This document shows, piece after piece, positions 3,941-20,297 of a stretch of 41,575 nucleotides of DNA. A model generated the notes under the pieces. It was not told the origin of the DNA and made no database searches. It saw only the letters and a program-made list of their open reading frames with translations. The DNA comes from Promethearchaeota archaeon (lineage in GTDB: Archaea; Asgardarchaeota; Lokiarchaeia; Sigyniarchaeales; SOKP01). The stretch covers positions 1 to 41,575 of the forward strand of contig JAGXNQ010000005.1 of NCBI GenBank assembly GCA_019894955.1, given 5' to 3'. Position 1 is the stretch's first letter. Each line of letters starts with the position of its first letter. Made by a program: the position numbers and the translations under genes.

Positions 3941-5209
3941 TTGTTTTCTCATAGAAATAATGATATGAATGAAGATCTTGACGAAAAATTTGATGACTTT
4001 CTCCAGCAAAATAATGAATTTTATGAGGATTGCGATAATGAATTCGAACCAATGGATGAATTATGTGAAGAAGAAAATGCTCTTAGCATTTTCGAACCTC
4101 GAGATGAAATTAGCAAAACAAATATGAATACATTTGAACCTTGGGAATACGAGTGTAAAAAAAATAATTCTGATAAAAAACACCATCAATCGAGTTCTAT
4201 TGAACGCTTTATAAATAAATTTAAAATAATAACAAACATTTATCATGGAAAGTATAAGGGAATGTGTGCTTACTGTAACTTAGATAATAAATTTTTGCAT
4301 ACAATTGATTTTCATCATTCTGATCCATCAATAAAAGAGATTACATGGAAGAATAGGAGGAATAAGGACTGGAAAGAGACGATGGAGTTATTCGAGAAGG
4401 AAAAAGTAATTCCTATGTGTGGAAATTGTCATTCCCGGGAACAAGCTGACCTATTTAATAGTTACAGAGAAATTATAATTAAAAAAAATCTTTTTGAAAA
4501 ATCTGCTTATCAAATTGATAAACTCATCCATGATAAGATTAAAGACCATGAAGCACAATATAATAGAAATATAAAATTTCGAATTGTAGAATGGCTTAAA
4601 AAACGTAGTGTTATTGAACAATTATACGACGGTAAATGCGTAGGATGTAATAAAATAACTGTAGAAAATAATCTTCCTGCTTTACAATTCCATCATAGAT
4701 CAGAAAGGAAAGAGGTAGAGAACAAATTTAAATGGCATAAAATTAAAAAATATGATATTAAAACAATTAGCAAAGAATTGATTAAAGAGGACTGTGTGTG
4801 TTTATGTGCAAATTGTCATAAAACAGTACATTTTAAGAACTTTAAGCTGAGTGATATTAGTATTCTTGGAAATGATTATAAAAGAGAAGTGGATAATTAT
4901 AAGTATGGAATTCAGCAAAATATACAGAAATTTGAATTAAAACTAACTGCAGTTAATAATCCCTTAGGAAAAGGGTATGGATATGGAGAAGCTTGGAAGA
5001 AGTATCTTCTTCATATCTCCAAATTATCAACAGAAGGTAAAAGAATCAAAACGTTAAATATAGCAAAAAGTGTTGGGGTTAATTCAAGAAATGTTCGTAA
5101 AAATATCCTAATTTTGTTAAATAAGGGATTCATCAGGATAGATGGGGAAAATAATAATAGAACAATATATTTAACTAAGAAGGGAAGAGAAGAATCAAAT
5201 AAGATGTAA
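3941..5209 (+). CDS. Protein with two HNH-like zinc/nuclease modules and a C-terminal winged-helix-like region
   Basis: CAYCN...IDFHHSDP...CGNCHSREQ and CVGCN...LQFHHRSERK...CANCHKTVHF; C-term LNIAKSVGVNSRNVRKNILILLNKGFIRI; start may be the ATG at 3965. Confidence 0.75.
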   Translation: MFSHRNNDMNEDLDEKFDDFLQQNNEFYEDCDNEFEPMDELCEEENALSIFEPRDEISKTNMNTFEPWEYECKKNNSDKKHHQSSSIERFINKFKIITNIYHGKYKGMCAYCNLDNKFLHTIDFHHSDPSIKEITWKNRRNKDWKETMELFEKEKVIPMCGNCHSREQADLFNSYREIIIKKNLFEKSAYQIDKLIHDKIKDHEAQYNRNIKFRIVEWLKKRSVIEQLYDGKCVGCNKITVENNLPALQFHHRSERKEVENKFKWHKIKKYDIKTISKELIKEDCVCLCANCHKTVHFKNFKLSDISILGNDYKREVDNYKYGIQQNIQKFELKLTAVNNPLGKGYGYGEAWKKYLLHISKLSTEGKRIKTLNIAKSVGVNSRNVRKNILILLNKGFIRIDGENNNRTIYLTKKGREESNKM

Positions 5210-5218
5210 AAAAAATAG

Positions 5219-5388
5219 CGCCCCGGGCATGGTTGTCGTCTTGCTCAGAGATTGAACAATGAAATCGAACATGCGACCGCCCGGTTAACTTCCGGAAATA
5301 ATGAAAAATCCATTATTTGAGCCGGGTGCTCTACTTTGTCTAGCACACCGAAGCGTTGCTCTGACCTATCTAACTGAGCTACCGAGGC
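5219..5388 (-). tRNA. tRNA-Asn(GTT) with three introns: D-loop (5335-5369), anticodon loop 33/34 (5290-5319), T-loop 59/60 (5233-5263)
   Basis: Acceptor GCCTCGG/CCGGGGC; spliced D-arm GCTC-AGTTAGGTA-GAGC; anticodon arm CCCGG-CTGTTAA-CCGGG; T-arm GCATG-TTCGATC-CATGC; anticodon-loop intron has CCGG:CCGG central helix with bulges CT^C and AA^G and an AAATAATG/CATTATTT hairpin. Confidence 0.88.
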
Positions 5389-5549
5389 GTGGTTTTTGTT
5401 AAATTCCTATATCAAATGTGTGTTTAGAGAAGCATTGAAGAATGCATCTCGAATAATTAAAGTTATTAACATTCCTTTTTAGGTTTTTCGATATGGTAGG
5501 GATATTTAAAACTAAGTCCTTAGAATTAAGTTGCTTAATAGAATTAATT

Positions 5550-6074
5550 TTAATCTTGAGATGCGTAGTAAATAAGCCATTTAGACATAGCTTGAAATGA
5601 CTCTACAATGTTTAAATCCTCTTTTGAGGAGCAAAATACACATTGATTACACTTAGCTTTCTCAGCATAATCATGAGCAACTTCTGGGTCAATTTCATGA
5701 TTTTTCAGATCCCATTTCATCCCTAATAAAATTATTGGAATGAATCCCGCTTTTTGACGAATAATTTTCAACCAATCTGGGACATCTCGAAATGTATCAT
5801 AATCAGTTAAATCAAAACATATAAATGCGCCACTTGCACCCTTGCAATAATCAGGAAGTAATTCTCTAAAGCGTTTTTCACCTGCAAAATCCCATAATTG
5901 CATTTTTACGGTTTCCCCAGTATCTAAAACTTCAGATTTTGTATTAAATCCCGCCCCAATTGTCATTTTATATCTATCTTGGAACTGCCCTGTACAATAT
6001 CTGGTGACCATCGCGGTCTTGCCAACTCCTCCAGCCCCTGCAATGATGACTTTAAATATCCAAGAGTTATACAT
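5550..6074 (-). CDS. Ras-like small GTPase
   Basis: P-loop GAGGVGKTA, G3 WDFAGEKRFR, degenerate G4 MKWD, G5-like SSKE. Confidence 0.88.
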   Translation of the reverse strand: MYNSWIFKVIIAGAGGVGKTAMVTRYCTGQFQDRYKMTIGAGFNTKSEVLDTGETVKMQLWDFAGEKRFRELLPDYCKGASGAFICFDLTDYDTFRDVPDWLKIIRQKAGFIPIILLGMKWDLKNHEIDPEVAHDYAEKAKCNQCVFCSSKEDLNIVESFQAMSKWLIYYASQD

Positions 6075-6264
6075 GATAAATAGCTTTAATATTGATAATT
6101 ATTTACGAATTTTTTTATATCTCAATAGCTAAATTACAAAACTAGGTTCATAAATAAAAATTTATCTTTTTAATAAATTAACGAAATAAAAAAGGTTTTT
6201 AAGAGATTTAGGTCTATTAATTGTTAGCACTTAATTTTAATAATAAAGGTTGTGAAGAAAGAAC

Positions 6265-6606
6265 ATTAAAGACGACGAGATTTGTCCAATATGTAGTTTT
6301 CCAAAAGAACTATGTATATGTGATAGTTTAAGCGCCGATGAGCAACAAATTATTATTTCTAACGATAAGAGGAAATGGGGGCGTGTCGTTACTGTTATCA
6401 CTTTTGAAGGTAATTTTGATGCAAATCTAAAAGATATTTTGAAAAAAGCAAAACATAAATGCGCGTCAGGAGGAACAATAAGAGATAACGAAATTGAACT
6501 ACAGGGAGATCACAAGTTAAAGATGAAAAAATTTTTGATGGATCAAGGATTTCCCGAAGAAAACATCCTCATACGAGATCGAATAAGCCAATCTTACAAG
6601 AAATAA
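6265..6606 (+). CDS. Translation initiation factor aIF1 (SUI1/eIF1 family), apparent AUU start; absent from the ORF track
   Basis: Reading frame (I/M)KDDEICPICSFPKELCICDSLSADEQQIIISNDKRKWGRVVTVITFEGNFDANLKDILKKAKHKCASGGTIRDNEIELQGDHKLKMKKFLMDQGFPEENILIRDRISQSYKK; in-frame TGA at 6253-6255 and no ATG/GTG/TTG before the conserved core. Confidence 0.9.
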   Translation: MKDDEICPICSFPKELCICDSLSADEQQIIISNDKRKWGRVVTVITFEGNFDANLKDILKKAKHKCASGGTIRDNEIELQGDHKLKMKKFLMDQGFPEENILIRDRISQSYKK

Positions 6607-6664
6607 TAATAAGGTGTTCGATTAACTAAATATTCGTAATTACTAATCAACAAGTTAGATTTTA

Positions 6665-7099
6665 ATGAGTTTCGTATTCTATAAAGTTATATTTAGAAGT
6701 ATTGGTGAAATGGAGGAATTCTCATTATCTTTAACTTTTAATAATGTAATTTCAGATAAGTACATTAATATGACGCATTATATAACTTCAATAAAGAATT
6801 TGAGTGATTTACATGAAAATGTAATTAATTTCCAAAATATTGAAGAAGTTATCTTAATGGGAGCAAATAGTCACCCTCTCTCATTTAATTATTATATTAT
6901 AATTTTAATAATACATAAAAACGAAAAAAAGGAAGGATATTTAATAGGTAATACTAAAAAATTAGGAGATTTACTGATAGGTACTTGGCCATTTAGTCAA
7001 GATCCAATCAAGACTCAACCAGATAAAATTTTGAAAAGATTTGATGAAATAATCAATAATCCTGGTAATGTTAACAAAATTAGTCTAATTTATTCCTAA
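6665..7099 (+). CDS. Hypothetical protein
   Basis: 144-aa ORF between aIF1 and a convergent kinase gene. Confidence 0.6.
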   Translation: MSFVFYKVIFRSIGEMEEFSLSLTFNNVISDKYINMTHYITSIKNLSDLHENVINFQNIEEVILMGANSHPLSFNYYIIILIIHKNEKKEGYLIGNTKKLGDLLIGTWPFSQDPIKTQPDKILKRFDEIINNPGNVNKISLIYS

Positions 7100-7103
7100 A
7101 TAC

Positions 7104-8042
7104 CTAATCAAAAAAAGATTTGTCGTTTTCTTTTAAAAACTTGGTTATCAATTTTTCATTAGGCATTCCAGTTCGAGCCCCCAATTGCTGTATCTTTAGG
7201 GCTGAAGCAGCATTTGCATATTTACATGATTTTTCTAACGACCACTTCTTTATCCAATATGCTAGCGAAAATGCGCCATTAAATGTATCTCCTGCACCAG
7301 TAGTATCAACAATATTTTTAACATTATAAGCAGGAATCATTTTTTGATATTGTTTGGTTGTTAATAATACTCCTTTACTCCCCATAGTAATAATTACAAT
7401 AGGAATCCCCTTTTTAATCAATATATCTGCTGCTTCTTTAGGCGTTTTACTATTTGTTATAGATTTTGCTCCTTCTTTGTTTGGAATTATAATATCTGCT
7501 TGTAAAAGCATTTTCTTTAAATTATTCCATCCACTTTGAGCAATTTGAGATTCTAGATCGATGCTTACGTTTACATTATTTTTTTTTGCAATTTCAATAG
7601 CCTTTTCGGTAATTTCTTGATGAATCATAGTTGTGTGCAATAATTTTGAATTGATGATAGAAAATTCATCAAAGTCAGAGATTTCAACCTTAGTTTTCAG
7701 CATATGAGGTGATTGTATAATTGATTTCTCTCCTTTTACAATAAAGATGAAATTTACTGGAGTTTTTTGCTCTTTTTTTATGAAGGTCCATTTAGTGTTT
7801 ACATTCTCTTTATTAAAGTCAGAAATTAGCAAATCTCCATATGGATCACCTCCTACGGCACCTATAAAACCACTTTTTCCACCCAATCTTGCGACTGCAA
7901 CTAAATAGTTAGCGGTTACTCCCCCTGGAAAAATATTTTCGCTTATCGCATTAATTTTTTCATCTGGTTTTGGAAAATGGGGGATTTCAGTGACCCAATC
8001 GACCACAACCTCTCCTAAACCTATAATATCGATCTGGTTCAT
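7104..8042 (-). CDS. PfkB-family carbohydrate kinase
   Basis: GGVTANYLVAVARLGGKSGFIGAVGGDPYGD and DTTGAGDTFNGAF. Confidence 0.93.
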   Translation of the reverse strand: MNQIDIIGLGEVVVDWVTEIPHFPKPDEKINAISENIFPGGVTANYLVAVARLGGKSGFIGAVGGDPYGDLLISDFNKENVNTKWTFIKKEQKTPVNFIFIVKGEKSIIQSPHMLKTKVEISDFDEFSIINSKLLHTTMIHQEITEKAIEIAKKNNVNVSIDLESQIAQSGWNNLKKMLLQADIIIPNKEGAKSITNSKTPKEAADILIKKGIPIVIITMGSKGVLLTTKQYQKMIPAYNVKNIVDTTGAGDTFNGAFSLAYWIKKWSLEKSCKYANAASALKIQQLGARTGMPNEKLITKFLKENDKSFFD

Positions 8043-8116: not shown

Positions 8117-10186
8117 CTAAGAATTTAACTCTTCCATGAGATAATTTAATTCCTTTGTAGGATCAGTAAATTGAAATTCAGAAACTTTCAGCTCATAATT
8201 GTTCATATCATTAAAATCATTTAATGAAGCTCTTCCACGAACAATTAAGCTACGACCTTCCAAATCTTTTAAAACATCGCTTAAATCTTCCATATCCGCG
8301 ATTTCACTTGCTTTCTTGCCAACCAACTCTTCAGCTTGCTGACCAAAAAAACTGGTTTTTATTGTGCCACTTTCATCATCCAGGACGACTTTTAAGATCA
8401 TTCTTTTCTCTGATTCTTCTTTTTTTTCACATGTACAATTGGTATCCTTTTTAAAGCACGTCGGACAAGCATCATATATGAACAAATCTCTCTTAGATAA
8501 ATCAATTTCCTTTATAATGCTTCCTTTTATTTCAAAAAATCCAATAGAATCAATTGATTCGATTTTTGTTTCCAAAAATTGTGAAGACTTATTTGAACTT
8601 GGTGAGCTTGCTTTCTTTGTAAACTTGATATCTTCATTAATTTTCTCAATTTCAGAAAATTTATTAAAAGTTGCCTCCTTTCTGTCAAACCTCTCATTAT
8701 ACTTAATTCTGACATTTGAAACTAAAACTTTCATCTCATCTGTTAATTTTTCGGCTAATTCTTCCGCTATATCTCTCCATGCAGTCACTCGAATTGAACC
8801 TGTATTATCACTAACTTCAAAATCAAGTACAGACACATCTTCTCCTGATTTAAGAGTAACTTTTCTTATCTCTCCTACAGATGTAATTACACCTTTAAAA
8901 GAAGCGGAGTTTTCAAGGTTTTCGATCTCTTTTATATTTTTAGTAATTGTAGTTTTTAACTTTTCTTCTTTTGGACGTGCTGTAATTTGAATTTCTTCCT
9001 CGATTACATTAATCTCTGAAACTCGATTATAAATAGCTTCTTTTCTGTCAAACATTTCATTGTGTTTAAGATTAACATTTGACACCAACACCGTCATATC
9101 ATTTGTTAATTTTTCGGCTAATTCTTCCGCTTTATCTCTCCATGCAGTCACTCGAATTGAACCTGTATTATCACTAACTTCAAAATCAAGTACAGACACA
9201 TCCTCTCCTGATTTAAGAGTGACTTTTCTCATCTCTCTGACAGATGTTATAACTCCTTTGAAAGATACTAATTTTTCAAGTTCTTGAATAGATTTTATGT
9301 TTTTAGCTATTGCAGCTTTATATTGAACGCTTCCTTTGGTTTTTTTAATAATTGTGTTAGGGGATGCTGTTAGTTCAATTGTTTTCGGATTTAATTTACT
9401 TTCTCGTGGAGAAAGTTGAGTAATAGAAATATTATCTCCTTCTTTTATTCCTTGAATTTTATCAACATCTTCATTCCAAAAAACTATTCTGACAATACCA
9501 GTTGAATCCATTATTTCGATGTTTCCGACTTTTCCTGTGTTTCCATCACTCTTTACAAATTCTTTTACTGGAGTATAACGAAGCACTTGACCCTTAATTG
9601 AATAAGATTTAAAATTCGGAGTAATATCTCCAATTTTCGTAAAGGCTTGCGTTATTTTAGGAATTTTATTATAATCAATATCTTCCGGGGATAAGATAAT
9701 TTTTCCAAAACGCCCAACATGTATTTCTAAATCTTGATATCGACCTTCTTTAGTATACCCATTGATAATTTTTACAACCTCATTTATTACAAAGTTTTCA
9801 TGTGTTAAAATTTTAGTATCTTCATCCCATAAAACGACTCGAATCTCCCCTGATTCATCTTGGATTGAAAATGATCCAACAAATCCTTCACTTCCATCAT
9901 TTCTTGTAAAATTGAATATTTTATTAACATCTTTTATTCTTCCTGCTAAAACAATATTTTTCATCCCAAGGGAAATATCAGAGATCTTAACTTCAATGTT
10001 ACTAATAGCATCTGTATTCTCTTTTTTTACCTCTACTTTTAGCTCTTTTGCTATTAGAAGTAGTGCTCCATCATCAGTAATTAATCCTTTAAGTTCTGCT
10101 TTTTTTTCATCCACAAGATCTTGAATGTCTTTTCGAGATAATCCTGTTTCATCCATAATTTTATTAATATACGATTCTGCTGACAT
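8117..10186 (-). CDS. Replication protein A-like multi-OB-fold ssDNA-binding protein
   Basis: Repeated OB-fold signatures (DxTGSIRVxxWRDxAEEL), zinc motif CPTCFKKDTNCTC in the C-terminal region. Confidence 0.9.
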   Translation of the reverse strand: MSAESYINKIMDETGLSRKDIQDLVDEKKAELKGLITDDGALLLIAKELKVEVKKENTDAISNIEVKISDISLGMKNIVLAGRIKDVNKIFNFTRNDGSEGFVGSFSIQDESGEIRVVLWDEDTKILTHENFVINEVVKIINGYTKEGRYQDLEIHVGRFGKIILSPEDIDYNKIPKITQAFTKIGDITPNFKSYSIKGQVLRYTPVKEFVKSDGNTGKVGNIEIMDSTGIVRIVFWNEDVDKIQGIKEGDNISITQLSPRESKLNPKTIELTASPNTIIKKTKGSVQYKAAIAKNIKSIQELEKLVSFKGVITSVREMRKVTLKSGEDVSVLDFEVSDNTGSIRVTAWRDKAEELAEKLTNDMTVLVSNVNLKHNEMFDRKEAIYNRVSEINVIEEEIQITARPKEEKLKTTITKNIKEIENLENSASFKGVITSVGEIRKVTLKSGEDVSVLDFEVSDNTGSIRVTAWRDIAEELAEKLTDEMKVLVSNVRIKYNERFDRKEATFNKFSEIEKINEDIKFTKKASSPSSNKSSQFLETKIESIDSIGFFEIKGSIIKEIDLSKRDLFIYDACPTCFKKDTNCTCEKKEESEKRMILKVVLDDESGTIKTSFFGQQAEELVGKKASEIADMEDLSDVLKDLEGRSLIVRGRASLNDFNDMNNYELKVSEFQFTDPTKELNYLMEELNS
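8707..8905. repeat. Copy 1 of near-identical OB-fold coding repeat inside the RPA-like gene
   Basis: Long near-identical stretch gttaatttttcggctaattcttccgct...tcaagtacagacacatc shared with copy 2 at a 363-bp offset. Confidence 0.9.
9070..9268. repeat. Copy 2 of near-identical OB-fold coding repeat inside the RPA-like gene
   Basis: See copy 1; offset is exactly 121 codons. Confidence 0.9.
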
Positions 10187-19358: not shown

Positions 19359-20297
19359 TTGTTTTTGGATCTGTCAATGACGATAAATAATTCAAACTTA
19401 TGTCCAGAATGTGGAAATAAGAATTTAATCTCTGATGAGGCTCGTGGTGAGATAGCTTGTGTTGTATGTGGGTTAGTACTGGATCAAAGACTCATTGATT
19501 CGGGTCCAGAATGGAGAGCCTTTTCATCAGAAGAAGCATCTAAAAAAGTGAGGGTTGGAGCTCCAACTACTTTAACTATTCACGATAAGGGGCTCAGTAC
19601 TATGATTGGTTGGACAAATAAAGATGCGTTTGGAAAAAATATTAGCCCAAAGATGAAGGCAGAAGTGTACCGTCTGAGAAAATGGCATGTTAGAACTCGT
19701 ACAAATAAATCTCTTGATCGTAATTTAGCCTATGCCATGAATGAGTTAGATAGATTTTCATCTCAGTTAAATTTATCAAAGGAATTAAAAGAATCTGCTG
19801 CTCATATTTATCGTAAAATGGCTAATAAAAATTTAATCCGTGGAAGATCAATAGAGGCTATGCTAATTGCTTCAATATATCTCTCTTGTAAATTAAATAA
19901 GATTCCTAAAACCCTAGATGATTTTTTGGAATTTGCATTGGTAGATAGGAAAAAAATTGCTCGATGTTATAGGTTAATCATTCAGGAATTAAAGATCAAT
20001 ATTATTGTACCTTCTCCAACAACATTCATCCCAAGGTTTTGTGCTGAACTAAATCTTTCAGGGCGAACCCAGAATAGAGCTGCAGAATTATTGAAACTAG
20101 CAAAAAAATATCAGATCACTGCTGGTAAAGCACCTACTGGCCTAGCTGGTGCCGCATTATATGTGGCTGCTATGCAAGAAGGTGAACGGAGAACTCAAAA
20201 AGAAATCTCATTAGCAGCAGGTGTAACTGAAGCAACTATAAGAAATAGATATAAGGAGCTTGTAAATCATATGCAGGCAAATTTCAACGCACTTTAA
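19359..20297 (+). CDS. tfb: Transcription initiation factor TFB (TFIIB)
   Basis: CPECGNKNLISDEARGEIACVVCGLVLDQRLID zinc ribbon, DPGPEWRAF-like motif, two cyclin-like repeats; probable ATG at 19377. Confidence 0.97.
   Translation: MFLDLSMTINNSNLCPECGNKNLISDEARGEIACVVCGLVLDQRLIDSGPEWRAFSSEEASKKVRVGAPTTLTIHDKGLSTMIGWTNKDAFGKNISPKMKAEVYRLRKWHVRTRTNKSLDRNLAYAMNELDRFSSQLNLSKELKESAAHIYRKMANKNLIRGRSIEAMLIASIYLSCKLNKIPKTLDDFLEFALVDRKKIARCYRLIIQELKINIIVPSPTTFIPRFCAELNLSGRTQNRAAELLKLAKKYQITAGKAPTGLAGAALYVAAMQEGERRTQKEISLAAGVTEATIRNRYKELVNHMQANFNAL

Follow-up and report, generated by a model that had tools for sequence, protein, structure and literature searches.

The stretch of DNA analysed here (the window, 41,575 nucleotides of contig JAGXNQ010000005.1 from a Promethearchaeota archaeon) carries a gene for aIF1 (SUI1/eIF1) in a conserved neighbourhood, positions 5550-8042, that it shares with genes for a Ras-like GTPase, an uncharacterised protein and a PfkB sugar kinase (Table 1). 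The source genome is a 2.77 Mb MAG (88% complete, 244 contigs) in which a single aIF1 copy was detected.

Table 1. Features of the aIF1 locus and other genes of the window
Feature	Position	Strand	Description and basis
Chaperonin (Cpn60/TCP-1)	57-1661
Ras-like GTPase	5550-6074	-
TATA-like element TTTTTAAGAG	6196..6205	+	~60 nt 5' of the AUU; similar AT-rich element in relatives
Shine-Dalgarno-type element AAAGGTTGTGA	6245..6255	+	9 nt between its last base and the AUU; 34-sequence alignment, 16S 3' end
Mini-frame GTG AAG AAA GAA CAT TAA	6252..6269	+	stop overlaps the AUU; 5-codon frame in 32/34 distinct close sequences
In-frame TGA	6253..6255	+	excludes an upstream NTG start; translation; kept in most relatives
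aIF1 (SUI1/eIF1) CDS	6265..6606	+	113 codons and TAA, very probable AUU start; translation, Pfam SUI1, NF002096, conserved relatives
AUU start codon (very probable)	6265..6267	+	no in-frame NTG; ATT or ATC in distinct close relatives; ATA in genus g6 and other families
Zinc-knuckle codons CX2C...CXC of aIF1	6283..6321	+	translation; motif per PMC6237735
Uncharacterised 144-aa ORF	6665-7099		no Pfam match
PfkB sugar kinase	7104-8042	-
RPA-like multi-OB-fold protein (Rep_fac-A_C)	8117-10186
TFIIB	19359-20297

The aIF1 frame reads IKDDEICPICSFPKELCIC...DRISQSYKK followed by TAA, and its translation from the AUU is I(AUU)-KDDEICPICSFPKELCIC...SYKK-stop. This product matches the Pfam SUI1 family (E=2.2e-17, 63.7 bits against a cut-off of 25.5) and the NCBIfam SUI1 model NF002096 (5.6e-33, 113 bits against a curated cut-off of 98), so the frame encodes a complete aIF1. 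The N-terminal zinc knuckle, of the CX2C...CXC type found in ~64% of archaeal aIF1 proteins, is present as CPICSFPKELCIC, with SFP replacing the GLP of the archaeal motif CX2CGLPX3C-phi-C (PMC6237735). By translation, there is no in-frame ATG, GTG or TTG between the TGA at 6253 and the zinc-knuckle Cys codons; the next in-frame Met codon lies near the C-terminus, and an in-frame TTG at 6250 directly abuts the TGA. An earlier note on this DNA had described a complete aIF1 preceded by this in-frame TGA and lacking a canonical start before the conserved region, and the translation and both family matches bear out that description.

Comparison with relatives allowed us to evaluate the AUU at 6265, which the same note had put forward as the start codon. 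Within the genus and in neighbouring genera, nine variable bases separate AAAGGTTGTGA from ATT AAA GAC GAC, and Lokiarchaeia genomes from independent assemblies share the layout AAAGGTTGTGA-N9-ATT-AAA. A sequencing or assembly indel masking an ordinary ATG or GTG start might be suspected in a MAG of 244 contigs, but dozens of genomes from separate assemblies, among them that of a 95% identical relative (L002), have the same layout, and the likelihood of such an error is practically negligible. Every same-genus relative whose 5' end is intact keeps the layout, which rules out both chance and an indel as its source. Among the 34 distinct close sequences, 33 have ATT as codon 1 and one has ATC; NTG never occurs there. 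Mean entropy at codon positions 1/2/3 of codons 2-21 in these sequences is 0.26/0.08/0.73, a codon periodicity which indicates that coding begins right after codon 1. In the start column, 46 of the 48 AUH codons are ATT, compared with 49% (312/643) of the Ile codons within the same aIF1 genes, where ATA makes up 31% and ATC 21%; the sequences are related, and the comparison is descriptive.

The 3' end of 16S rRNA is GGATCACCTCC in all eight loci examined, and the ideal Shine-Dalgarno sequence is therefore GGAGGTGATCC. The duplex of AAAGGTTGTGA with the 16S 3' end has a predicted energy of ~-7.9 kcal/mol, in the same register as that of GGAGGTGA in paralogues. The median pairing energy is -7.6 kcal/mol for aIF1 leaders versus -4.0 kcal/mol for 414 control leaders of the same group. 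Second-copy aIF1 genes (L081, L084, L086, L088 and L091) have AGAGGTGA or GGAGGTGA in this register, ~8 nt before ATT or ATA; these copies belong to genomes G018, G036, G004, G012 and G073, and their strong Shine-Dalgarno element contains an in-frame GTG. Nearly all positions of AAAGGTTGTGA, with AAAGG and GTGA fully so, are invariant in the 34 distinct sequences. Pairing would be stronger with GGAGGTGA, yet selection seems to maintain the interrupted form. The position of TTTTTAAGAG is consistent with a leadered aIF1 mRNA. A structured leader or known RNA element was considered and rejected, given the absence of any Rfam match within positions 5000-7500 and a folding z-score of -0.23.

Taken together, the conserved AUU or AUC in near relatives and AUA elsewhere, the upstream in-frame stops, the Shine-Dalgarno element at a fixed distance and the coding signature strongly support initiation at AUU, and we consider it very probable that the codon at 6265 is the start of this aIF1 gene.

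The GTG at 6252 had also been noted as opening a short competing frame. This frame exists as described and is conserved in close kin, being altered in 2 of the 34 distinct close sequences. Its GTG is part of the Shine-Dalgarno element and its stop is formed by ATT-AA. Several relatives have lost or changed the frame: L010 has CAA in place of the stop, L028 an earlier stop and L090 GGG for GTG, and L108, L119 and L124 of other families have no GTG at the corresponding position. A competing role is doubtful, given both the overlap of the GTG with the Shine-Dalgarno element and these losses. In close Lokiarchaeia kin, the overlapping GUG mini-frame and the invariant GGTTGTGA may nevertheless add a canonical decoy start.

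The conserved mini-frame would also fit a prfB-like arrangement, in which translation starts at GTG 6252 and a +1 shift at CAT-TAA enters the aIF1 frame; GTG, four codons and TAA are found in 32 of the 34 distinct close sequences. The upstream-frame stop expected at a prfB-type shift site is not conserved, however, since L010 and L028 deviate, as does L090 at the GTG itself, and these three loci led us to reject the shift. The location of the GTG within the Shine-Dalgarno element, its absence from L108, L119 and L124, and the failure of a CAU-to-AUU slip to re-pair further argue against this very improbable reading. Readthrough of the TGA from the TTG at 6250 was likewise rejected: the TTG is replaced by TCG in L025 and by CCG in L028 and L030, and genus g8 has extra TAA and TAG stops. 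A start at a GTG inside the Shine-Dalgarno element is permitted by the frame in genus g6 and in the paralogues, and is excluded in genome G059 (L090, GGG) of that same genus.

To assess the breadth of this feature, we surveyed 121 Asgard aIF1 loci for those with no in-frame NTG between the upstream stop and the first Cys codon. This was the case in 61 of the 121 loci, with AUU, AUC or AUA, or in two loci CUG, as the apparent start, and in 52 of the 73 Lokiarchaeia loci (71%). By family the counts are 47/57 in f1, 2/7 in f2, 1/1 in f5, 2/2 in f7, 2/5 in f8, 1/1 in f12, 3/3 in f13 and 3/5 in f17, and zero in the remaining sampled families. The codon at the expected place is AUU or AUC in f1, and AUA in genus g6 of f1 and in f2, f5, f7, f12, f13 and f17. 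Genomes of genus g6 have an in-frame GTG inside the Shine-Dalgarno element, which L090 replaces with GGG, leaving AUA as the only start common to this genus. In the f8 loci L162 and L164, the TGA is followed after one codon by CTG TCA GAC GAA, which aligns with GTG TCT GAC of sister genomes, and the start is probably CUG. One locus (L161, family f27) was left out: what looked like an AUA start is followed four codons on by an in-frame ATG, and the zinc knuckle is missing. Alignment of aIF1 starts across Asgard archaea, as the earlier note had suggested, thus reveals a recurrent non-NTG start that is not universal: f4, f9, f18, f20 and others have ATG or GTG, and several families have GUG or UUG. 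On the aIF1 protein tree, NTG starts appear or disappear at least 12 times, which implies repeated gain or loss of the trait.

The survey also revealed a split aIF1 gene in the 'complete' chromosome CP070831.1 (G076), where codons 1-24 are separated by ~353 kb from codons 20-106 on the other strand (L063/L085 and L067/L113), with a masked N stretch beside tRNA-like sequence. Either the chromosome is misassembled here or an inversion has its breakpoints within aIF1.

For comparison, conserved ORFs of the Lokiarchaeia loci were clustered into 23 control families with 543 copies, including translation factors, ribosomal proteins, a Ras-like GTPase and others, and were screened for the same absence of an in-frame NTG. 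Automatic screening flagged 17 of the 543 copies, ~8 of which (~1.5%) were clean on inspection, versus 52 of 73 for aIF1 (Fisher p ~1e-49, kinship ignored). Apparent AUA starts were found for eS27 (L238, L242 and L254) and eS4 (L273, L277 and L287, all of genus g6), an apparent AUU start for eL42 (L231), and an apparent AUA or AUU start for aIF6 (L206). These copies have no in-frame NTG back to the stop, and their orthologues mostly have ATG at the aligned position, which suggests that AUH starts are under-annotated in Lokiarchaeia. A rare ATT start has also been inferred for a tubulin of Kariarchaeaceae, an Asgard family, in an independent 2026 paper (PMC13394414). AUH starts are thus not unique to aIF1; judged from these alignments, the non-canonical start is conserved and strongly enriched in aIF1 of Lokiarchaeia, while not exclusive to it. 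The isolated ribosomal protein and aIF6 copies and the tubulin proposal would be expected if Asgard, and especially Lokiarchaeial, ribosomes generally tolerated AUA, AUU and AUC, so that the aIF1 case had no regulatory meaning. We regard this as quite improbable in view of the contrast between ~1.5% in controls and 71% in Lokiarchaeia aIF1, and because the control AUA and AUU starts are sporadic or confined to one genus.

The aIF1 of Sulfolobus (S. solfataricus) favours discrimination against non-canonical starts and destabilises initiation complexes formed on them (PMC6237735, PMC8211752). In the light of this published activity, the purpose of the aIF1 start is best explained as negative feedback exerted by the factor on its own AUU, a reading that we favour with moderate confidence. 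The Lokiarchaeon aIF1 mRNA is very probably translated from the AUU, positioned by the upstream Shine-Dalgarno element; high aIF1 levels would reduce initiation at this codon and low levels would increase it, resulting in a translational negative feedback that holds aIF1 constant. The evidence for this discrimination was obtained with Sulfolobus rather than Asgard ribosomes. As some Asgard families have ATG or GTG at the start of aIF1, such feedback, if real, is not universal.

The main rivals to feedback are the general tolerance discussed above and a fixed low rate of aIF1 synthesis, whereby the AUU is the start and acts merely as a static throttle. The conserved weak start and the retained Shine-Dalgarno element fit a constant low rate equally well, and the GUG and UUG starts in several Asgard families would then be milder throttles. 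Against this reading, which we consider unlikely, stands the identity of the product: rejection of such codons has been reported for this same factor, and some dependence on the aIF1 level is therefore expected, unless the Asgard aIF1 lacks this activity.

Autoregulatory circuits of this type have precedents in the other two domains. IF3, the product of infC, and aIF1 are unrelated proteins that act on different types of ribosomes. In both cases, a fidelity factor is encoded by a gene with a non-canonical start: infC starts with ATT in E. coli and ATC in Streptomyces, and the codon is the sensor of a feedback system (PMC5472188). The infC feedback was shown by experiment and is abolished by an AUU-to-AUG change, according to work cited in PMC5472188, whereas for aIF1 feedback is inferred; a lineage-conserved start other than AUG, GUG or UUG is found in aIF1 as well, in the form of AUU, AUC or AUA. 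The homologous eukaryotic factor eIF1 also has a weak initiation site in its own mRNA, a poor AUG context conserved across lineages (PMC5823381). In eIF1 the AUG is kept, the flanking context is weak and the site is reached by scanning, whereas in aIF1 there is no AUG, and the codon itself is weak and placed by a Shine-Dalgarno element. In Streptomyces, the GTC start of sigR is repressed by IF3 and thereby senses the level of the fidelity factor (PMC5472188), although sigR is bacterial and does not encode an initiation factor. The Kariarchaeaceae tubulin gene AtubA resembles aIF1 as an Asgard gene with an inferred ATT start at a plausible distance from its ribosome-binding site, but it is a single case outside the initiation factors, and the accessible part of the paper makes no regulatory proposal for it (PMC13394414). 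Together with the published activity of aIF1 against non-canonical starts and the strong enrichment of such starts in this gene, the infC and eIF1 precedents make an aIF1 autoregulatory circuit plausible.

The principle itself is already known from bacteria (infC) and eukaryotes (eIF1); in our literature search, which had slight coverage of subscription papers, no archaeal aIF1 gene was described as having a non-canonical start. A broader scenario, which we advance only tentatively and consider rather unlikely, is that control of a/eIF1 by its own weak start site is ancient. Asgard archaea would use AUU, AUA, AUC or CUG behind a Shine-Dalgarno element, with the GUG mini-frame and GGTTGTGA as a possible decoy in close kin, and eukaryotes would have inherited the loop from an Asgard-like ancestor, the weakness moving from the codon to the AUG context as scanning arose.

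In Asgard genomes, aIF1 and some genes for ribosomal proteins would be overlooked or cut short by gene finders that demand ATG, GTG or TTG. If the feedback is true, all three domains share one logic, in which the factor that polices start codons is made from a start that it polices; archaea and eukaryotes would do so with homologous factors and bacteria with an unrelated one. The feedback would also provide an evolutionary lead on the control of eIF1 from the presumed archaeal relatives of eukaryotes.
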